Shown here in pieces: positions 3,609 to 54,725 of a DNA stretch of 64,000 bases. The notes beneath the pieces were generated by a model that worked only from the letters and a program-made list of their open reading frames with translations, was not told where the DNA came from and did no database searches. The translations under genes were made by a program, and so were the position numbers. The stretch lies in assembly GCF_028595305.1 (NCBI RefSeq), contig NZ_JAQQXS010000016.1, forward strand, positions 1 through 64,000, in the 5' to 3' direction. This stretch comes from Roseateles koreensis. Lineage in GTDB: Bacteria; Pseudomonadota; Gammaproteobacteria; Burkholderiales; Burkholderiaceae_C. Position 1 is the first letter of the stretch; each line of letters starts with the position of its first letter.

Positions 3609-3989
3609 ATGGCATTCGATAAAGACGCATTCATCACCGCTCTGGACGCTATGTCCGTGCTCGAACTCAACGACCTGGTCAAGGCCATCGAAGAGAAGTT
3701 TGGCGTGTCCGCCGCTGCTATGGCTGCTCCCGCAGCTGGTGGCGCTGCTGGCGGCGGCGCTGCCGCAGCTGAAGAGCAAACCGAGTTCAACGTGATCTTG
3801 ACTGACTGCGGCGCACAAAAAGTGTCCGTCATCAAGGCCGTGCGCGAAATCACCGGCCTGGGCTTGAAAGAAGCCAAGGATCTGGTTGACGGCGCTCCCA
3901 AGGCTGTCAAGGAAGGCGTGTCCAAGGCTGATGCCGAAGCCGCCAAGAAGAAGCTGGAAGAAGCCGGCGCCAAGGTCGACGTCAAGTAA
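3609..3989 (+). CDS. rplL: 50S ribosomal protein L7/L12
   Basis: L7/L12 is the multi-copy stalk protein that recruits and activates translational GTPases. The 126-residue product has the dimerisation domain (1 to about 36), an Ala/Gly/Pro hinge (about 37-56), and the C-terminal factor-binding domain with [20 protein letters not shown] near 74-93. AGGAG precedes the ATG. The gene is separated from rpoB by 429 bases with an attenuator-like hairpin, as expected where L7/L12 is needed in large excess over polymerase. Confidence 0.98.
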
Positions 3990-4128
3990 TGACGTTGCCA
4001 CGTGCGGGCTTGCTTCGGCGGTCTGCACGGGCAGACGGAGTCACACGAACGGTCGATTCTTTCTGTGCCACATGCCTGACGAGGCGGTGGCAGAGAAGTT
4101 CAGAATCACACCGCTTGTGAATGACTTG

Positions 4129-42702: not shown

Positions 42703-42752
42703 TTGCATCCATAATTCCAATTTCATAGAATCATAGAATCATTGAATTATGG
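42703..42752 (+). promoter_or_regulatory. arsR promoter with overlapping operator repeats
   Basis: TTGCAT (42703-42708), a 17-base spacer and TAGAAT (42726-42731) form a promoter. Three tandem octamers CATAGAAT, CATAGAAT, CATTGAAT fill 42724-42747. CCATAATTC 42709-42717 is the exact reverse complement of GAATTATGG 42744-42752, which includes the start codon. Transcription would begin about 10 bases before the ATG, with no room for a Shine-Dalgarno sequence. This is the expected binding site for ArsR itself. Confidence 0.65.
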
Positions 42753-43081
42753 AAGTTAAGCAAATTGTCCGTTCCCTCGCAGCCCTGGCGCAAGCGCACC
42801 GGCTCAAGGTGTTTCGTCTGCTGGTCGTTGCTGGCCAACAAGGCCTGACGCCAGGCGCAATCGGGGAAGCGCTGGAGTTGCCGGCAGCGACCCTTTCCTT
42901 CCATCTGAAGGAGCTGAGCAACGCCGGCCTTGTGACGCAGGAGCGCATCAGCCGTAACGTGGTGTACCGCGCATCCTTCGATCACATGAACGAATTGCTG
43001 GCTTATCTCACGGAAAACTGCTGCAAGGGCGAGGCCTGCCTGTCCACGCCGTCCACGCCGTCCACGGCCTGCGCCTGCTGA
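42749..43081 (+). CDS. arsR: ArsR-family metalloregulator
   Basis: 110 residues: a winged helix with ALAQAHRLKVFRLLVVAGQQ, LPAATLSFHLKELSNAGLVT and YRASFDHMNELLAYL. ArsR repressors leave DNA on binding As(III). No Cys pair is in the DNA-recognition helix. Instead the C-terminus holds Cys-Cys, Cys and Cys-Ala-Cys (NCCKGEAC ... ACAC), a C-terminal thiolate site as described for some other ArsR groups. A 9-base sequence is repeated three times between these cysteines. The start lacks a ribosome-binding site. arsC follows after 60 bases. Confidence 0.93.
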   Translation: MEVKQIVRSLAALAQAHRLKVFRLLVVAGQQGLTPGAIGEALELPAATLSFHLKELSNAGLVTQERISRNVVYRASFDHMNELLAYLTENCCKGEACLSTPSTPSTACAC

Positions 43082-43141
43082 TACCCAAGCCCGCCCTGAA
43101 GCAATCCTGAGAGTTTTTCGACATCCATCCTGCCTGTCACC

Positions 43142-43654
43142 ATGACGACCCACGTACTCATCCTCTGCACCCACAATTCCGCACGTAGCGTGCTCTCTGA
43201 GGGTATGTTGAATCACCTCGCTGCAAAGCTAGGTAAGGACGTGAAGGCCCACAGCGCCGGCAGCGCGCCCAGTGGTCGCCTGAACCCCTTCGCGCTCGAA
43301 GCTTTGACCAATGCCGGTGTCGACATCAGTGGCTACCGCAGCAAGAGTTGGGATGAATTCACCACACCGGAAGCGCCTCCGCTGTCTATCGTCATTACCG
43401 TGTGCGACAGCGCTGCCGCAGAGCAGTGCCCTGTCTTCTTCGGCGCAAGCTCTGATGATGGCCCGCCGGTAAAAGTGCACTGGGGCTATCCGGACCCGTC
43501 CAACGCAGAGGGGGGCGATGAAGGCAAGCGCCGCGCTTTTGAGCTCACACGCCAGGCTCTGGGCTACCGAATGCTCCAATTGCTGCAACTGCCCTTGGAG
43601 CAACTGAGTAAAGCGGAGCTGCTGGCCGCCCTGAATGCCATCGCAAAGACTTGA
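43142..43654 (+). CDS. arsC: Arsenate reductase, low-molecular-weight phosphatase type
   Basis: 170 residues that should reduce As(V) to As(III). The phosphatase loop CTHNSARS (Cys9 to Arg15) is at the N-terminus and the general-acid loop with Asp is in HWGYPDPSNAEGGDEGKRR. AHSAGSAPSGRLNPFALEAL is typical of this group. The Cys of FTVCDSAAAEQCP-type position is present (VCDSAAAEQCP). It is 60 bases after arsR and 16 bases before the aquaporin gene, so the three form one operon. Confidence 0.92.
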   Translation: MTTHVLILCTHNSARSVLSEGMLNHLAAKLGKDVKAHSAGSAPSGRLNPFALEALTNAGVDISGYRSKSWDEFTTPEAPPLSIVITVCDSAAAEQCPVFFGASSDDGPPVKVHWGYPDPSNAEGGDEGKRRAFELTRQALGYRMLQLLQLPLEQLSKAELLAALNAIAKT

Positions 43655-43670
43655 GACGCCGCCTTTGATC

Positions 43671-44333
43671 ATGAAAACGAGTACCTCTCAAAAGCTCCTG
43701 GCTGAGACGCTGGGCACTGCGCTGTTGCTGGCCGTCGTGATCGGCTCCGGCGTCATGGCCGAGCGCCTGTCTGGCGGCAATGTCGCCATCGCGCTGCTCG
43801 CCAACACCTTGGCGACCGTTGGTGGCCTGTACATCTTGATCGAGGTCTTTGGGCCTATCAGCGGCGCGCATTTCAACCCGGCGGTCAGCGCTGTCATGGC
43901 CTGGCGTGGCGAGTTGCCGGCGGCCGCTTTGCTGCCCTATATTGGCGCGCAGTTGCTCGGTGCCATGCTGGGCGCTTGGTTGGCGCATGCAATGTTCGAT
44001 ATGAGTATTCTGCAGTTCTCCACCAAGCTGCGTGGGGGCCGCGGGCAGTGGATCGCGGAGGCCGTCGCCACGTTCGGGCTCTTGCTGGTGATCCTGCGCG
44101 CACCCAGCTCCCGCGTGGCAGCCATGGTCGCGGCCTACATCGGTGCGGCGTACTGGTTCACGGCGTCTACCTCGTTTGCCAACCCCGCTGCCGTGTTCGG
44201 CCGCATGCTCAGCGACAGCTTTGCCGGGATTGCGCCGTCGAGCGCCCCGGGCTTTGTTGTCGCCCAACTGCTGGGCGCCGCCGTTGCCGTGGGCGTGAAT
44301 CAGCTGTTTTCGGCAGCCGATCCCCAAACCTAG
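43671..44333 (+). CDS. aqpS: Aquaporin-family channel of the ars operon (AqpS-like)
   Basis: 220 residues with six hydrophobic segments and two NPA boxes (69-71 and 171-173). In most aquaporins the second box is followed by Arg, which narrows the pore; here it is NPAAVFGRM, with Ala174. In ars operons such channels let As(III) made by ArsC leave the cell down its gradient, as shown for AqpS of Sinorhizobium. No arsB or acr3 pump gene is in the window. ATG 43671 is chosen over the frame from 43635, which overlaps arsC. Confidence 0.88.
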   Translation: MKTSTSQKLLAETLGTALLLAVVIGSGVMAERLSGGNVAIALLANTLATVGGLYILIEVFGPISGAHFNPAVSAVMAWRGELPAAALLPYIGAQLLGAMLGAWLAHAMFDMSILQFSTKLRGGRGQWIAEAVATFGLLLVILRAPSSRVAAMVAAYIGAAYWFTASTSFANPAAVFGRMLSDSFAGIAPSSAPGFVVAQLLGAAVAVGVNQLFSAADPQT

Positions 44334-45737: not shown

Positions 45738-46229
45738 ATGAAACGCCTGACCATGTCGCTGGATGATGAATTGGCCGATGCTTTCGAGCATTGGGTGCAG
45801 GAACACGGCTATGAGAACCGTTCAGAGGCCTTCCGCGATCTTTTGCGCCAGGACTTGGGCGAGCGGCATTTGGCGCGGCGTCCGCATGGACCTTGCGTGG
45901 CTGTGTTGAGTTATCTCTATGACCACCATCAGCGCCAATTGGCCCTGCGTTTGACAGAGATGCAGCATGAGCATCATGAGCTGACCGTCTCCACCACTCA
46001 CGCGCATCTCGATCACGATCATTGCATTGAGACCGTCATTTTGCGAGGGCGCAGTGACCAAGTGCAGGCCTTCGCCCAGACGGTGATGGCGCAGCCCGGA
46101 GTCAGCCATGGCCATCTGCATTTAGTGCCTGTGGCGACCCGCTTGGCTCATGGGCATGAGCATCTGGCTCCGGCTGATTTCACGACGCCTGTGAAGGCCG
46201 TGTTGCCCAAGAAAAAAGGCGCTAAGTGA
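45738..46229 (+). CDS. nikR: Nickel-responsive regulator NikR
   Basis: 163 residues: a ribbon-helix-helix DNA-binding domain (KRLTMSLDDELADAFEHWVQ) followed by an ACT-type metal domain. The high-affinity nickel ligands His77, His88, His90 and Cys96 are present (HAHLDHDHC), equivalent to E. coli His76, His87, His89 and Cys95. The tail to 163 is longer than in E. coli. ATG 45738 has TTGAGGATCG; the frame from 45648 is not conserved. A NikR-like palindrome lies 140 bases beyond its stop, before a TonB receptor. Confidence 0.95.
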   Translation: MKRLTMSLDDELADAFEHWVQEHGYENRSEAFRDLLRQDLGERHLARRPHGPCVAVLSYLYDHHQRQLALRLTEMQHEHHELTVSTTHAHLDHDHCIETVILRGRSDQVQAFAQTVMAQPGVSHGHLHLVPVATRLAHGHEHLAPADFTTPVKAVLPKKKGAK

Positions 46230-46356: not shown

Positions 46357-46395
46357 TTGAGAAGCGCCGTATGATGAAATAATATTTCTTCATAC
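46357..46395 (+). promoter_or_regulatory. NikR-type operator overlapping the TonB receptor promoter
   Basis: A sigma-70 promoter, TTGAGA (46357-46362), 17-base spacer, TAATAT (46380-46385), is overlapped by a 27-bp palindrome at 46369-46395. Its arms are GTATGA and TCATAC, with inner GAAATA and TATTTC. Only one arm pair and the centre fail to match. The E. coli NikR site is GTATGA-N16-TCATAC; here the spacer is 15. Bound NikR would cover the -10 box, so repression by nickel is predicted. Confidence 0.7.
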
Positions 46396-46440
46396 CGTCA
46401 TGTGTTGCGGTTACAAAGACTGACCGCAACGAGGCGCCCT

Positions 46441-48594
46441 ATGAGCTATTCCCCGCCGATCTCCCGTTCTTGTCGATCTCCTTCGCAGATTTCTTTGGCC
46501 GCGGCCTTGATCTGCAGCTCTTTCTTGGCGCATGCACAGGAGCGCCCCGCGAAAGAAGACGACAAGCCGCAGCAACTGGCTATGGCCAATGTGCTGGAAA
46601 CGGTGGAAGTCAGTGGCCGGCATTACGACAATGCCGTGGGCAGCAGCGATGCAGCCTCGCAAGGCGTGGTGCGAGCCGAGTTGCTGAAGAGCCGGCCTTT
46701 GTTGAGGCCCGGTGAGGTGCTGGAAACGGTGCCAGGTCTCGTCGTCACTCAGCACTCGGGCGATGGCAAGGCCAATCAGTATTTTTTGCGCGGTTTCAAT
46801 TTAGACCATGGCACCGACTTCGCCACCACGGTCGATGGACTGCCGGTCAATATGCCCAGTCATGGCCATGGCCAGGGCTATTCGGACTTGAATTTTTTGA
46901 TGCCCGAGTTGGTCGATCGCATTGAGTACCGTAAAGGGCCTTACTTCGCGGGCAATGGCGATTTTGCGGCCGCCGGTTCGGCCGATATGCTGCTGCAGCG
47001 CCGCCTGAGAGCGCCTTTTGTGCAGCTGACCTTGGGGGGAGGAGGCTATCGCCGTGGCTTGTTGGCGGGCTCCTCCGACTTGAATGCTGGCCTGCATCTG
47101 CTGGGTGCCGTCGAAGTGATGCGCAACGACGGGCCCTGGACCTTGAAAGAAGGGCTGCACCGCAACAATGCCGTGCTGAGTCTGAGCAAGGGGAATGCGC
47201 AAGCAGGCTGGTCAGCCAGCTTGATGGCGTATGACGCCCGTTGGAATTCCACCGACCAAGTGCCGCAACGTCTGGTGCAAGCCGGCCGCTACGACGGCAA
47301 GCCATTTGGCCGATTCGACGCGGTGGACCCCACAGATGGCGGCGAAACCTCGCGCAGCAGCCTGTCTTTTGAATGGCACGATGCCGATGCGCATGGCAGC
47401 ACCCACTGGGCGGCCTATGCCTTGGACTATCGCCTCAAGCTGTTCTCCAATTTCACCTACGCCATGGACCGGCCGGGGATGGGTGACCAGTTCTCGCAGC
47501 AGGACCAGCGCCATGTTTATGGGCTTTCAGCCAAACGCGTCATCCAACACAAGTTGGGCGGGTTCGAGGCGAGCAGCGAGCTCGGCCTCCAACTGCGCCA
47601 CGACAACATCCGCGTCGGCTTGTATGACAGCCAGGCACGCGTGTTGAGTGCGACAACGCGTGATGATGAAGTGCGTCAAAGCTTGGCCAGCGTCTATGCG
47701 CAAACCGGTGTTGAATGGTCGCCCAAGTTTCGATCGGTGCTGGGCTTGCGCCTAGACCGCCTGGACGCCCGGGTGAACAGTTTGCTGCAGCCGCTCAACT
47801 CCGGCACGGCCGGGCAGACCTTGCTGTCGCCCAAGCTTTCGCTGGTGATGGGGCCCTGGAACAAGACTGAGTTCTTCTTCAACGCGGGCAGCGGTTTCCA
47901 CAGCAATGATGCACGTGGCATGACGGCGGCTGTCGACCCTAAATCGGGCGAAGCGCAGGAGCGTGTACCCGGCCTGGTCAGGGCCAGGGGCGCCGAGATT
48001 GGCACGCGCACGGAGTGGTTGCCCGGCCTGCAAAGCTCGCTGTCCTTGTGGCAGTTGAACTTTGATTCAGAGCTGATTTACTCCGGCGACTCGGGCACCA
48101 CTTCCGCACAAGGGCCCAGTCGCCGCTACGGCGTGGAGTGGAACAACCACTGGCTGCCCACGCCCGGGCTGCAGATCGATCTGGACATGGCCTGGACGCA
48201 TGCGCGATTCAAATTTGATGCGAGCGATGACATCACTGTCGGTCGTTACATCCCCAACTCGGTGGACCAAGTCGTCACCGGCACGGTCACGCTGAATGAT
48301 CTCGGCCCCTGGTCCATGAGCCTGACCGAGCGCTATATCGGCAGCGGCCCCTTGAGCGCTGACAACAGCGTGCGTTCCGAGTCATCGCTGATCAGCAATC
48401 TGCGCCTTGGCCGCAGTCTGGGACCCAAGATGCAGCTGAATCTGGACGTGCTCAATCTTTTCGATCGCCGCTACAACGACATCGAGTACTTTTATGCCAC
48501 CCAGCTCAAGGGTGAGCCCGCGCCGGTGAACGGCAAGGTCATCCACCCCGGTGAGCCACGCACCTTGCGCTTGACGCTGAAGGCACAGTTCTGA
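46441..48594 (+). CDS. TonB-dependent outer-membrane receptor, probably for nickel
   Basis: 717 residues with a signal peptide ending at AHA (about 31), a plug domain (about 60-180) and a 22-strand barrel ending in AQF. The plug carries a His-rich stretch, NMPSHGHGQGYSDLNF, seen in metal-type receptors. TonB-dependent receptors import scarce ligands using inner-membrane energy. Its promoter is overlapped by the NikR-like operator, which together with adjacent nikR suggests nickel or a nickel chelate as substrate; that is inference. ATG 46441 gives a complete signal peptide; the frame from 46402 is not needed. Confidence 0.9.
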   Translation: MSYSPPISRSCRSPSQISLAAALICSSFLAHAQERPAKEDDKPQQLAMANVLETVEVSGRHYDNAVGSSDAASQGVVRAELLKSRPLLRPGEVLETVPGLVVTQHSGDGKANQYFLRGFNLDHGTDFATTVDGLPVNMPSHGHGQGYSDLNFLMPELVDRIEYRKGPYFAGNGDFAAAGSADMLLQRRLRAPFVQLTLGGGGYRRGLLAGSSDLNAGLHLLGAVEVMRNDGPWTLKEGLHRNNAVLSLSKGNAQAGWSASLMAYDARWNSTDQVPQRLVQAGRYDGKPFGRFDAVDPTDGGETSRSSLSFEWHDADAHGSTHWAAYALDYRLKLFSNFTYAMDRPGMGDQFSQQDQRHVYGLSAKRVIQHKLGGFEASSELGLQLRHDNIRVGLYDSQARVLSATTRDDEVRQSLASVYAQTGVEWSPKFRSVLGLRLDRLDARVNSLLQPLNSGTAGQTLLSPKLSLVMGPWNKTEFFFNAGSGFHSNDARGMTAAVDPKSGEAQERVPGLVRARGAEIGTRTEWLPGLQSSLSLWQLNFDSELIYSGDSGTTSAQGPSRRYGVEWNNHWLPTPGLQIDLDMAWTHARFKFDASDDITVGRYIPNSVDQVVTGTVTLNDLGPWSMSLTERYIGSGPLSADNSVRSESSLISNLRLGRSLGPKMQLNLDVLNLFDRRYNDIEYFYATQLKGEPAPVNGKVIHPGEPRTLRLTLKAQF

Positions 48595-53540: not shown

Positions 53541-54506
53541 TCAAAACCCGTAGCGCAAGCCCAGCGAGAAAGTCACTTTGGGTTCCAGTTGAAGCCCGGT
53601 GACGTGCTGGTAGATCGGTACTTGCACGAAGCCATAACCCTGGAGTTGCTCGGTCAAGGCCACGGTGGCGCCTGGGCTTAAGTACACCAGGGTGGAGCCG
53701 GAGTTGGGGGCGTCGGCGTTGTCGCCCGACTCCCTGCCTTCATGCCGAAGGTTCAATTGCAGCTGCGGCACGATGCCGCTCTCGCTCACGTAGCGCAGGC
53801 CGGCCGTCAGGGTGGTGGTCACGCCGGGTTTGAATTGGTCCTTGGTGCTCAAGGGTGCTTGAACCAGCACTTGGCCGAAGTAGTCCAGCCCGGCGCCGAT
53901 GCTGCCGAAGTGGTAGGCGCCGACAAGCAAGTCGGTGGAGCCCGTGCCGGCTTGCAGGCCGCGGTCCAGTGGCTGGTCGGCTTGCGGGCCGCCGTTGAAG
54001 TTCACGTCGATGGCGCCCGTGGGCAGTTTCAGGCCGAACAGCAGGCCCCAGGAGCGCTCGGCGTTGAAGCCGCGATAGCGGCCCAGCACACGCGCATCGC
54101 CAAAGCTTGATGAGCGGGAGCTCGACAGGTCGGTGTCGCCCGCGGCAATGGTCGTGTGTGAACGGCTGATGTAGGGCAGTTGCAGGCTCACGCCCCAATC
54201 GGCGTTGATCCCGTAGTCGGCCGTGAGTGTGGTGACGTGGTTGGTGGTGCGCTGCTGAATTTCCTGCTCATTGGGGAAGGTGAGACTGCTGCGATTCATC
54301 GTGCCGGTGCCGCTGCGCAGTTGGTCTTGGTCGAAGTAGTCGTGGCGCAAATCCAGCGTCAGGCCGGCGTCGGCCTTGAAGCCTTGGCTGGCCCAGTCTG
54401 AATTGAGCAGGCAGCCGCAGGAGGAGCAGGCTTGGGCGGCGCCGGATGCGAGCAGGCTCGCGGCCACGGCGCTGAGCGCCCAAGCGGGAAAGGAGGTGAT
54501 GTTCAT
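53541..54506 (-). CDS. Outer-membrane beta-barrel protein with Cys-rich N-terminus
   Basis: 321 residues from ATG 54506 with a signal peptide ending near AQA (about 25). Right after it comes CSSCGCLLNSDW, three cysteines in six residues. The rest has alternating strands typical of a barrel (GLTLDLRHDYFDQDQLRSGT, WGVSLQLPYISRSHTTIAAG, GVTTTLTAGLRYVSESGI) and ends in Phe (LGLRYGF). The Cys cluster could bind a metal, cofactor or thiol partner. No precise function is known to me; it lies next to a metal and efflux cluster and a small Cys/His protein gene. Confidence 0.8.
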   Translation of the reverse strand: MNITSFPAWALSAVAASLLASGAAQACSSCGCLLNSDWASQGFKADAGLTLDLRHDYFDQDQLRSGTGTMNRSSLTFPNEQEIQQRTTNHVTTLTADYGINADWGVSLQLPYISRSHTTIAAGDTDLSSSRSSSFGDARVLGRYRGFNAERSWGLLFGLKLPTGAIDVNFNGGPQADQPLDRGLQAGTGSTDLLVGAYHFGSIGAGLDYFGQVLVQAPLSTKDQFKPGVTTTLTAGLRYVSESGIVPQLQLNLRHEGRESGDNADAPNSGSTLVYLSPGATVALTEQLQGYGFVQVPIYQHVTGLQLEPKVTFSLGLRYGF

Positions 54507-54725
54507 GGCAATGCCGATCAGCGGGGGGCGTACAAGCGTGGGCGACGATGGCCGCGGCGCGAGGCGCGCAGGGCAGGGTGGCAATGATGCAAACGGCTTG
54601 TCCGCCGGGTGAGTTCAAAGTGCCGGGCGCTGATGGAAGCTTCAGGAAGCTTCCGGGCGCCGGCAGTATGGAAGCGGGCGGCCCGCGCAGTTTGAAGGCT
54701 GCTGCGCAAGGGCCGGGCTTGACGC

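Follow-up and report, generated by a model that had tools for sequence, protein, structure and literature searches.

The window, the 64,000-nucleotide stretch of Roseateles koreensis DNA analysed here, contains a gene for a nickel-responsive repressor, a 27-bp palindrome and a gene for a TonB-dependent outer-membrane receptor in a row. The features referred to below are:

45738..46229, forward strand: nikR, from the ATG at 45738 to the stop codon at 46227-46229; nickel-responsive ribbon-helix-helix repressor of 163 aa
46357..46362, forward strand: possible -35 hexamer TTGAGA, consensus match only
46369..46395, no strand assigned: predicted NikR operator GTATGA-N15-TCATAC of 27 bp; exact match, conserved with Paucibacter sp. 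KBW04, same type of site in relatives
46380..46385, forward strand: possible -10 hexamer TAATAT within the operator, consensus match only
46441..48594, forward strand: TonB-dependent outer-membrane receptor of 717 aa from the ATG at 46441, with Plug and barrel domains
46861..46881, forward strand: plug motif HGHGQGY, assigned by sequence; lies next to a short gap when aligned with the BtuB plug

The nikR product has both parts that define the NikR family, a ribbon-helix-helix DNA-binding domain (Pfam RHH_1, 25.6 bits) and a NikR_C nickel domain (100.2 bits), both above the cut-off. It scored 179.1 bits against NCBIfam NF002815, for which the cut-off is 83, and below the model cut-off for TIGR02793 in the same NCBIfam search. 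The closest PDB relative was E. coli NikR (1q5v, E 1.4e-34), compared with which the C-terminal tail is about 30 residues longer. H77, H88, H90 and C96 aligned with the nickel ligands of E. coli NikR, which we take to be numbered H76, H87, H89 and C95, and all four are retained. In the beta-strand that reads DNA, R3 and T5 are retained and T7 is replaced by Ser. Autoregulation of nikR through GTATGA-N15-TCATAC was dropped because there is no such site upstream of the gene, the best N15 match in the 287 upstream bases reaching only 7 of 12 letters. Close to nikR, at 42749-44333, genes for an ArsR-like regulator, an arsenate-reductase-like protein and a MIP-like channel form an apparent arsenic cluster, the first two genes being named by eye and the MIP match lying below the NCBIfam cut-off. 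A further gene of the window, at 53541-54584 on the reverse strand, encodes a secreted-looking protein of 347 aa with a CSSCGC motif, for which neither Pfam nor NCBIfam gave a match at E 0.001.

The receptor matched Pfam Plug (61 bits) and TonB_dep_Rec_b-barrel (81.5 bits), both above the cut-off, as expected of a TonB-dependent receptor. An in-frame GTG occurs at 46402, upstream of the ATG at 46441; the latter is probably the start, because the closest relative, KBW04, also has an ATG there in the alignment. G144, a genome of the same genus, carries a receptor identical to that of KBW04. Since a long open reading frame on the opposite strand comes after the receptor gene, this gene is probably a stand-alone transcription unit. 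The HGHGQGY stretch is present in the plug, as the earlier note had pointed out, but its use as a pointer to nickel control was given up. The second His was found in all 105 receptors and the first in 100 of the 105, whether or not a NikR site was present, so the motif marks the receptor family and not nickel control. A fold model of the receptor was weak, being built from 10 sequences only, with a mean pLDDT of 65.2 and much of the plug below 50, and was set aside as evidence.

The palindrome and its spacer

The 27-mer GTATGATGAAATAATATTTCTTCATAC at 46369-46395 has inverted GTATGA and TCATAC half-sites within the 27-28 bp overall length of GTATGA-type operators and no mismatch to GTATGA-N15-TCATAC. 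Inner arms that match each other had also been described for it, and 12 of the 13 arm pairs do so, pair 7/21 being the sole failure. No second 27-mer with 12 matching arm pairs was found in the window; base composition predicts 0.06 of them per 64 kb. It was also the sole match in the window at up to two mismatches, but 0.60 such matches are expected in shuffles, so a loose search with the 12 half-site letters is weak evidence. There are 139 bases between nikR and the palindrome, close to the earlier figure of 140, and 45 between the palindrome and the receptor ATG. When the region between nikR and the receptor was aligned with that of KBW04, the operator and the stretch downstream of it were conserved, and the upstream part was conserved much less.

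In the whole genome, no place other than the palindrome matched GTATGA-N15-TCATAC with fewer than two mismatches, and at two mismatches there were 36 matches versus 17 for a reversed control pattern. The same genome encodes urease and a full-length NiFe hydrogenase large subunit, plus a second large subunit in two pieces in one frame; a HupE gene adjoins the hydrogenase, and no NiCoT gene was found in this genome. The genome-wide list of N15 sites with up to two mismatches contained none less than 20 kb from the genes for urease, hydrogenase or HupE, which leaves the receptor as the only target found in this genome. Another HupE-like protein, the second, has a long N-terminal region and is encoded at G000:C4 25128-25574, and similar ones are encoded at loci such as L014, L211, L218 and L221.

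The arms are identical to the E. coli NikR half-sites and the spacer is one base shorter, as had been noted, the E. coli operator being GTATGA-N16-TCATAC (excerpt of PMC7055735). The enterobacterial NikR signal was printed in 2004 as GTATGAT-[N13/14]-ATCATAC, 27-28 bp long (excerpt of PMC545781). The spacer was compared with residue 7 of NikR across 112 NikR loci, a count that omits L340 and the matches without a locus. Within 1.5 kb of loci of the Ser7 type, exact N15 sites were found in 19 of 97 and exact N16 sites in none, and for loci of the Thr7 type exact N16 sites were found in 5 of 15 and N15 in 1 of 15. When one mismatch was allowed, the Ser7 type had 27 N15, 3 N16 and 1 N17 sites and the Thr7 type had 6 N16 and 1 N15. 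On the NikR tree, proteins with N16 sites and those with N15 sites were split across a 99/99 branch, save L336 on a long branch. The spacer result parts two NikR clades, N15 with Ser7 and N16 with Thr7, and because this is one deep split in the tree, residue 7 may be no more than a marker. N15 is the standard spacer of the clade to which the NikR of the window belongs. Moreover, the half-site centres of an N15 site are 21 bp apart, or two helical turns, and are therefore expected on the same face of the DNA. The idea of an unusual spacer that sets the dimer faces differently was rejected for these reasons.

Co-occurrence of the site, nikR and receptors

The earlier note had proposed a motif search over the genome and its relatives, and the relatives added to what the genome itself gave. 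Exact GTATGA-Nk-TCATAC sites with k = 12 to 18 numbered 49 in 299 genomes of the family versus about 33 in a reversed control (hand count), so that much of the total is background and the excess lies in N15. Exact N15 sites clustered with nikR: 17 of 21 had a NikR_C gene no more than 3.5 kb away, versus 0 of 28 sites with other spacers (Fisher 9e-10). Among the rest, the N15 site of G053 precedes a NiCoT gene and a receptor, with nikR on a different contig, and those of G005 and G174 have no nikR found and no receptor or nickel permease recognised alongside. In G147 the exact N15 site (L137, L220) lies ahead of a receptor in a genome with no NikR_C gene found; it has kept the exact operator together with a sigma-54-like element, which is possibly a case of recent nikR loss. 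In a wider sample of the class, about 4 of 33 exact N15 sites were beside nikR among the matches listed (hand count), so the pattern alone is not diagnostic outside the family.

Homologues of the receptor at E ≤1e-60 gave 103 rows in 93 of the 299 genomes. For 106 receptor loci, namely 97 of these rows (6 partial ones omitted) and 9 named loci, sites with up to two mismatches were sought in the 700 bases preceding the matched part; Paucibacter sp. KBW04 is in this set twice, L019 being a copy of L203. The scan gave 24 N15, 1 N13, 2 N14, 0 N16 and 2 N17 sites, and both N17 rows share their start base with an N15 site. A site lay ahead of the receptor gene itself or ahead of its operon for 22 of 30 receptors from genomes with nikR and for 2 of 67 from genomes without it (Fisher 3.8e-13, a value computed over related rows and to be taken as a guide). 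This comparison of 97 receptors counts L204, L209, L215 and L223, which lie behind a site and a NiCoT gene in one operon, and omits L019. The two exceptions without nikR were L220 in G147, with the exact site, and L285, whose two-mismatch site is as poor as chance would give.

Mapped on a tree of 105 receptor rows, the site calls for 14 changes, of which well-supported branches force no fewer than 13; shuffles gave 22.5. It is somewhat clustered on the tree, yet it has been gained or lost many times, and an operator that comes and goes with nikR over at least 13 changes is a better tie between these receptors and nickel control than one locus could be. The eight site-less receptors in genomes with nikR were L221, L239, L241, L267, L273, L280, L293 and L298. 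Four of them are in G183, G159 and G096, which have a distant NikR (27-28% identity, or not found with the NikR of the window), and three are in G291, G194 and G052, where another receptor copy carries the site. Two receptors with a one-mismatch site (L265, L278) and five with a two-mismatch site (L213, L257, L261, L271, L272) have nikR on another contig or more than 500 kb away. These seven distant sites fit what would be expected for action in trans.

The genes behind N15 sites include receptors and permeases, as assigned by Pfam for six proteins and by similarity to those six for the others. Close homologues of the receptor of the window are joined by a second receptor type (23-26% identity), which often has a DUF4198-like gene behind it, and by a third type (L090, L096). 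NiCoT permease genes follow sites with no mismatch in L081, L089, L092, L093 and L115 and with two in L128, and a CbiM-PDGLE gene follows a two-mismatch site in L111. The gene order in L089, L092 and L115 is nikR, site, NiCoT and a close homologue of the receptor. The pattern that marks GTATGA-type operators, co-occurrence with nikR and with genes for nickel transport in many genomes, is seen here. For 75 receptor homologues without a known nikR (67 and 8 named loci), a HupE-like neighbour was found in 12 and a NiCoT neighbour in 4. When 20 homologue loci without nikR were tested for a cobalamin riboswitch, one had it: in L217, at 3832-4080 on the reverse strand, the riboswitch lies some 250 bases ahead of the matched part, on the same strand, and the homologue is 59% identical.

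Six of the 51 plasmid records with a receptor homologue were examined, and a site with 0 or 1 mismatch was found at three of the six loci. In Afipia carboxidovorans pHCG3, nikR is divergent from the receptor gene, beside hyp genes, with a one-mismatch N16 site between them; a Comamonadaceae bacterium plasmid has nikR and then the receptor with a one-mismatch N15 site between, and a Bradyrhizobium guangxiense plasmid has an exact N16 site, a HoxN-type permease, the receptor and cybH. The three loci without a site were those of Paraburkholderia acidisoli, with nikR, a HoxN-type permease and the receptor; of Cupriavidus necator pHG1, where the receptor lies about 4.4 kb past HoxN and hydrogenase genes and no nikR was found in the stretch; and of a Sphingobium plasmid, where the homologue is at 38% and no nickel gene is nearby.

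Possible promoter elements at the predicted operator

A promoter with a 17-base spacing and its -10 box inside the palindrome had also been claimed. It exists as TTGAGA-17-TAATAT, but it is weak, with 9 of 12 consensus letters and two overlapping matches versus a shuffle mean of 0.4 (sd 0.6), and this sigma-70 promoter is not conserved in relatives. KBW04 has in its place a sigma-54-like element, GGGCATG-N4-TTGTA; the sigma-54 consensus is TGGCACG-N4-TTGCW. Such a -24/-12 element overlaps the operator at an offset of -13 in 11 of 41 site rows, and in 19 of 41 when two other registers are included. The rows at offset -13 (L084, L086, L089, L092, L093, L098, L105, L115, L134 and L220) match at least 7 of the 9 operator-independent letters, versus a background of 0.13% of 10,684 positions (P 6e-23, a value that ignores kinship, genomes with two rows and the presence of L134 in both orientations, with the offset chosen after inspection). 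Their -12 part is TTGT or a variant, a departure from the TTGC of the consensus, because the operator supplies the T. At offset -15 the element was found in L097 (10 of 12 letters) and L111 (8), and six closely related rows of the second receptor type have GGTATG-N4-TTGCT, the half-site doubling as the -24 part. At the site in the window the element is absent (1 of 9 letters at offset -13); the genome has an rpoN gene. Sigma-54 promoters as a general feature of the receptors were rejected, as matches of at least 10 of 12 letters occurred before 7 of 105 receptors versus 5.0% of shuffles, which is no excess, and only the fixed offset to the operator was enriched.

Upstream of the sigma-54-like sites, candidate NtrC-type enhancers are no more than suggestive: the best matches beat shuffles (P <0.05) in 4 of the 11 rows at offset -13 (register A), in 1 of 5 rows of register B and in 0 of 9 other rows. 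The four rows of register A were L220 (11 of 12 letters) and L115, L098 and L105 (10 of 12); the distances were scattered. Inspection by eye of the roughly 80 bases that precede the site in L089, L092 and L134 showed recurring stretches, GGGGTTnACCC-like or GGGGTTCTCCCC, which might be activator sites.

Tentatively, and leaning slightly against it, we consider that in Burkholderiaceae the NikR operator may be built into sigma-54 promoters, so that nickel uptake would be an AND gate that needs both the call of an activator and an empty NikR, and that the promoter class may have changed in R. koreensis. If so, the -12 element would share letters with the first half-site (TGGCACG-N4-TT|GTATGA), or the half-site would serve as the -24 element, and the enhancer-binding activator might carry a nitrogen or hydrogen signal. 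R. koreensis lacks the sigma-54 element and its operator holds a possible sigma-70 -10 box, so the promoter class would have changed there with the nickel switch staying constant. The overlap suggests that nickel uptake may be tied to nitrogen or hydrogen metabolism. Among the article titles listed by searches of mostly open-access literature, none dealt with such an overlap, and the nearest case, in an excerpt of PMC12622350, is a different arrangement in which H. pylori NikR represses the gene of the sigma-54 activator FlgR.

Interpretation and known systems

We are fairly confident that the NikR encoded upstream has its operator in the palindrome and would repress a nickel receptor through it when nickel is sufficient; the comparison of many genomes predicts the shut-off by Ni-NikR that the earlier note had proposed. 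NikR control of the receptor is very likely, and nickel is the likely cargo. In the proposed mechanism, sufficient cytoplasmic nickel would fill the His3Cys sites of the NikR tetramer, the two ribbon-helix-helix dimers would bind the two GTATGA half-sites, and NikR on the operator would keep RNA polymerase off the covered promoter and the receptor gene silent. When nickel is short, NikR would leave the operator and the receptor would be made. It would import nickel across the outer membrane with TonB energy, probably as a chelate, and this nickel would feed the urease and NiFe hydrogenases of the same genome. What the analysis establishes is the sequence, the gene identities and the conservation and co-occurrence of the site, nikR and nickel-permease genes; binding, repression, nickel as the cargo and its chelate form are what we infer.

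Several results count against the NikR reading, namely the 8 of 30 site-less receptors in genomes with nikR, the exact site in G147 without nikR, the three of six plasmid loci without a site (among them that of P. acidisoli, which bears nikR), the class-wide N15 sites that mostly lie away from nikR, the failure to find a NiCoT gene in the genome or a further target near its urease, hydrogenase or HupE genes, the cobalamin riboswitch at one of 20 homologues without nikR, and Fur-like matches somewhat above shuffles. The last of these bears on a reading that assigns the palindrome to Fur, Zur or some other factor and takes its resemblance to a NikR site as chance. With a threshold of 12 of 18 letters, Fur-like matches were found in 6 of 105 upstream regions versus 1.5% of shuffles, and with a threshold of 11 letters in 17 of 105 versus 7.5%, but they were poor, with a best of 13, and the one upstream of the receptor of the window (11 of 18) lies well away from the palindrome. 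The best Zur-like match upstream of the receptor of the window (9 of 12 letters) does overlap the palindrome; across the family, however, matches of at least 8 of 12 letters occurred in 10 of 105 regions versus 13.6% of shuffles, and Zur control of the receptor family was rejected for want of any excess. With N15 sites following the presence of nikR across genomes, another regulator is very improbable. Still further down in probability, to the point of being negligible, is a role at the RNA level, with a stem-loop terminating nikR transcripts or controlling translation. It would suit a near-perfect inverted repeat that comes after nikR, but there was no terminator-like call at the position of the palindrome in the window, the inner arms were A/T-rich and weakly conserved among 19 exact sites (0.05-0.83 bits per column), and sites are also found far from nikR.

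The alternative to be taken most seriously, though unlikely, keeps NikR as the repressor and nickel as the signal only, with cobalt, cobalamin or a broad metal chelate as the cargo. The apical loops of the BtuB plug bind B12, and BtuB plugs were the nearest solved sequences to the receptor, though at an E of about 2e-7. The riboswitch at L217 implies that the cargo may differ within the receptor family, but it was found in just one of the 20 loci, and the repeated pairing of these receptors with NiCoT or HoxN permeases, nikR and hydrogenase genes argues for nickel. The printed label of the receptor cluster discussed below, on the other hand, reads 'Nickel, Cobalt' (excerpt of PMC3400609).

An operator through which NikR represses a nickel receptor remains the preferred reading and places the locus among known systems. 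To our knowledge, experimental proof of outer-membrane nickel uptake exists for few bacteria. The original predictions of nickel TonB receptors are reportedly those cited as Rodionov 2006 and Schauer 2008. Ni(II) receptors named in an excerpt of PMC11247825 are FecA3, FrpB4, CntO, Bll6948, Daro_3944, Rgel01002199 and NikH; the part seen of PMC3400609 puts Bll6948, Daro_3944 and pHCG3_081 in one cluster, and that of PMC7142613 marks Daro_3944 and BLL6948 as predicted. The predicted receptors Bll6948, Daro_3944 and Rgel01002199 are likened to the receptor of the window by description only. The receptor homologue on pHCG3, the sole one in that record, was 42% identical over 90% of the query, stands beside the divergent nikR and is probably pHCG3_081; if it is indeed that gene, the receptor of the window has both the homology to a listed member and the linkage to nikR that define the cluster.

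The E. coli nikABCDE operator has the same half-sites and a homologous repressor, all four nickel ligands being conserved (PMC7055735, in part). It differs from the window in its N16 instead of N15 spacer, in Thr7 instead of Ser7 in NikR, and in serving an ABC importer instead of an outer-membrane receptor. H. pylori FrpB4 and FecA3 are NikR-repressed TonB-dependent receptors, and FrpB4 is implicated in nickel uptake (excerpts of PMC13367063 and PMC11247825). In these accounts they resemble the receptor of the window as NikR-controlled TonB-dependent receptors, a likeness by description and not by sequence. The H. pylori NikR site is an A/T-rich pseudo-palindrome, not GTATGA (excerpt of PMC5385501), with the motif TRWYA-n15-TRWYA (PMC12622350, in part). 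The receptor of the window thus joins nickel TonB receptors that were already predicted, so that the locus itself adds little that is new; together with its relatives it provides well-delimited, testable candidates for nickel receptors.
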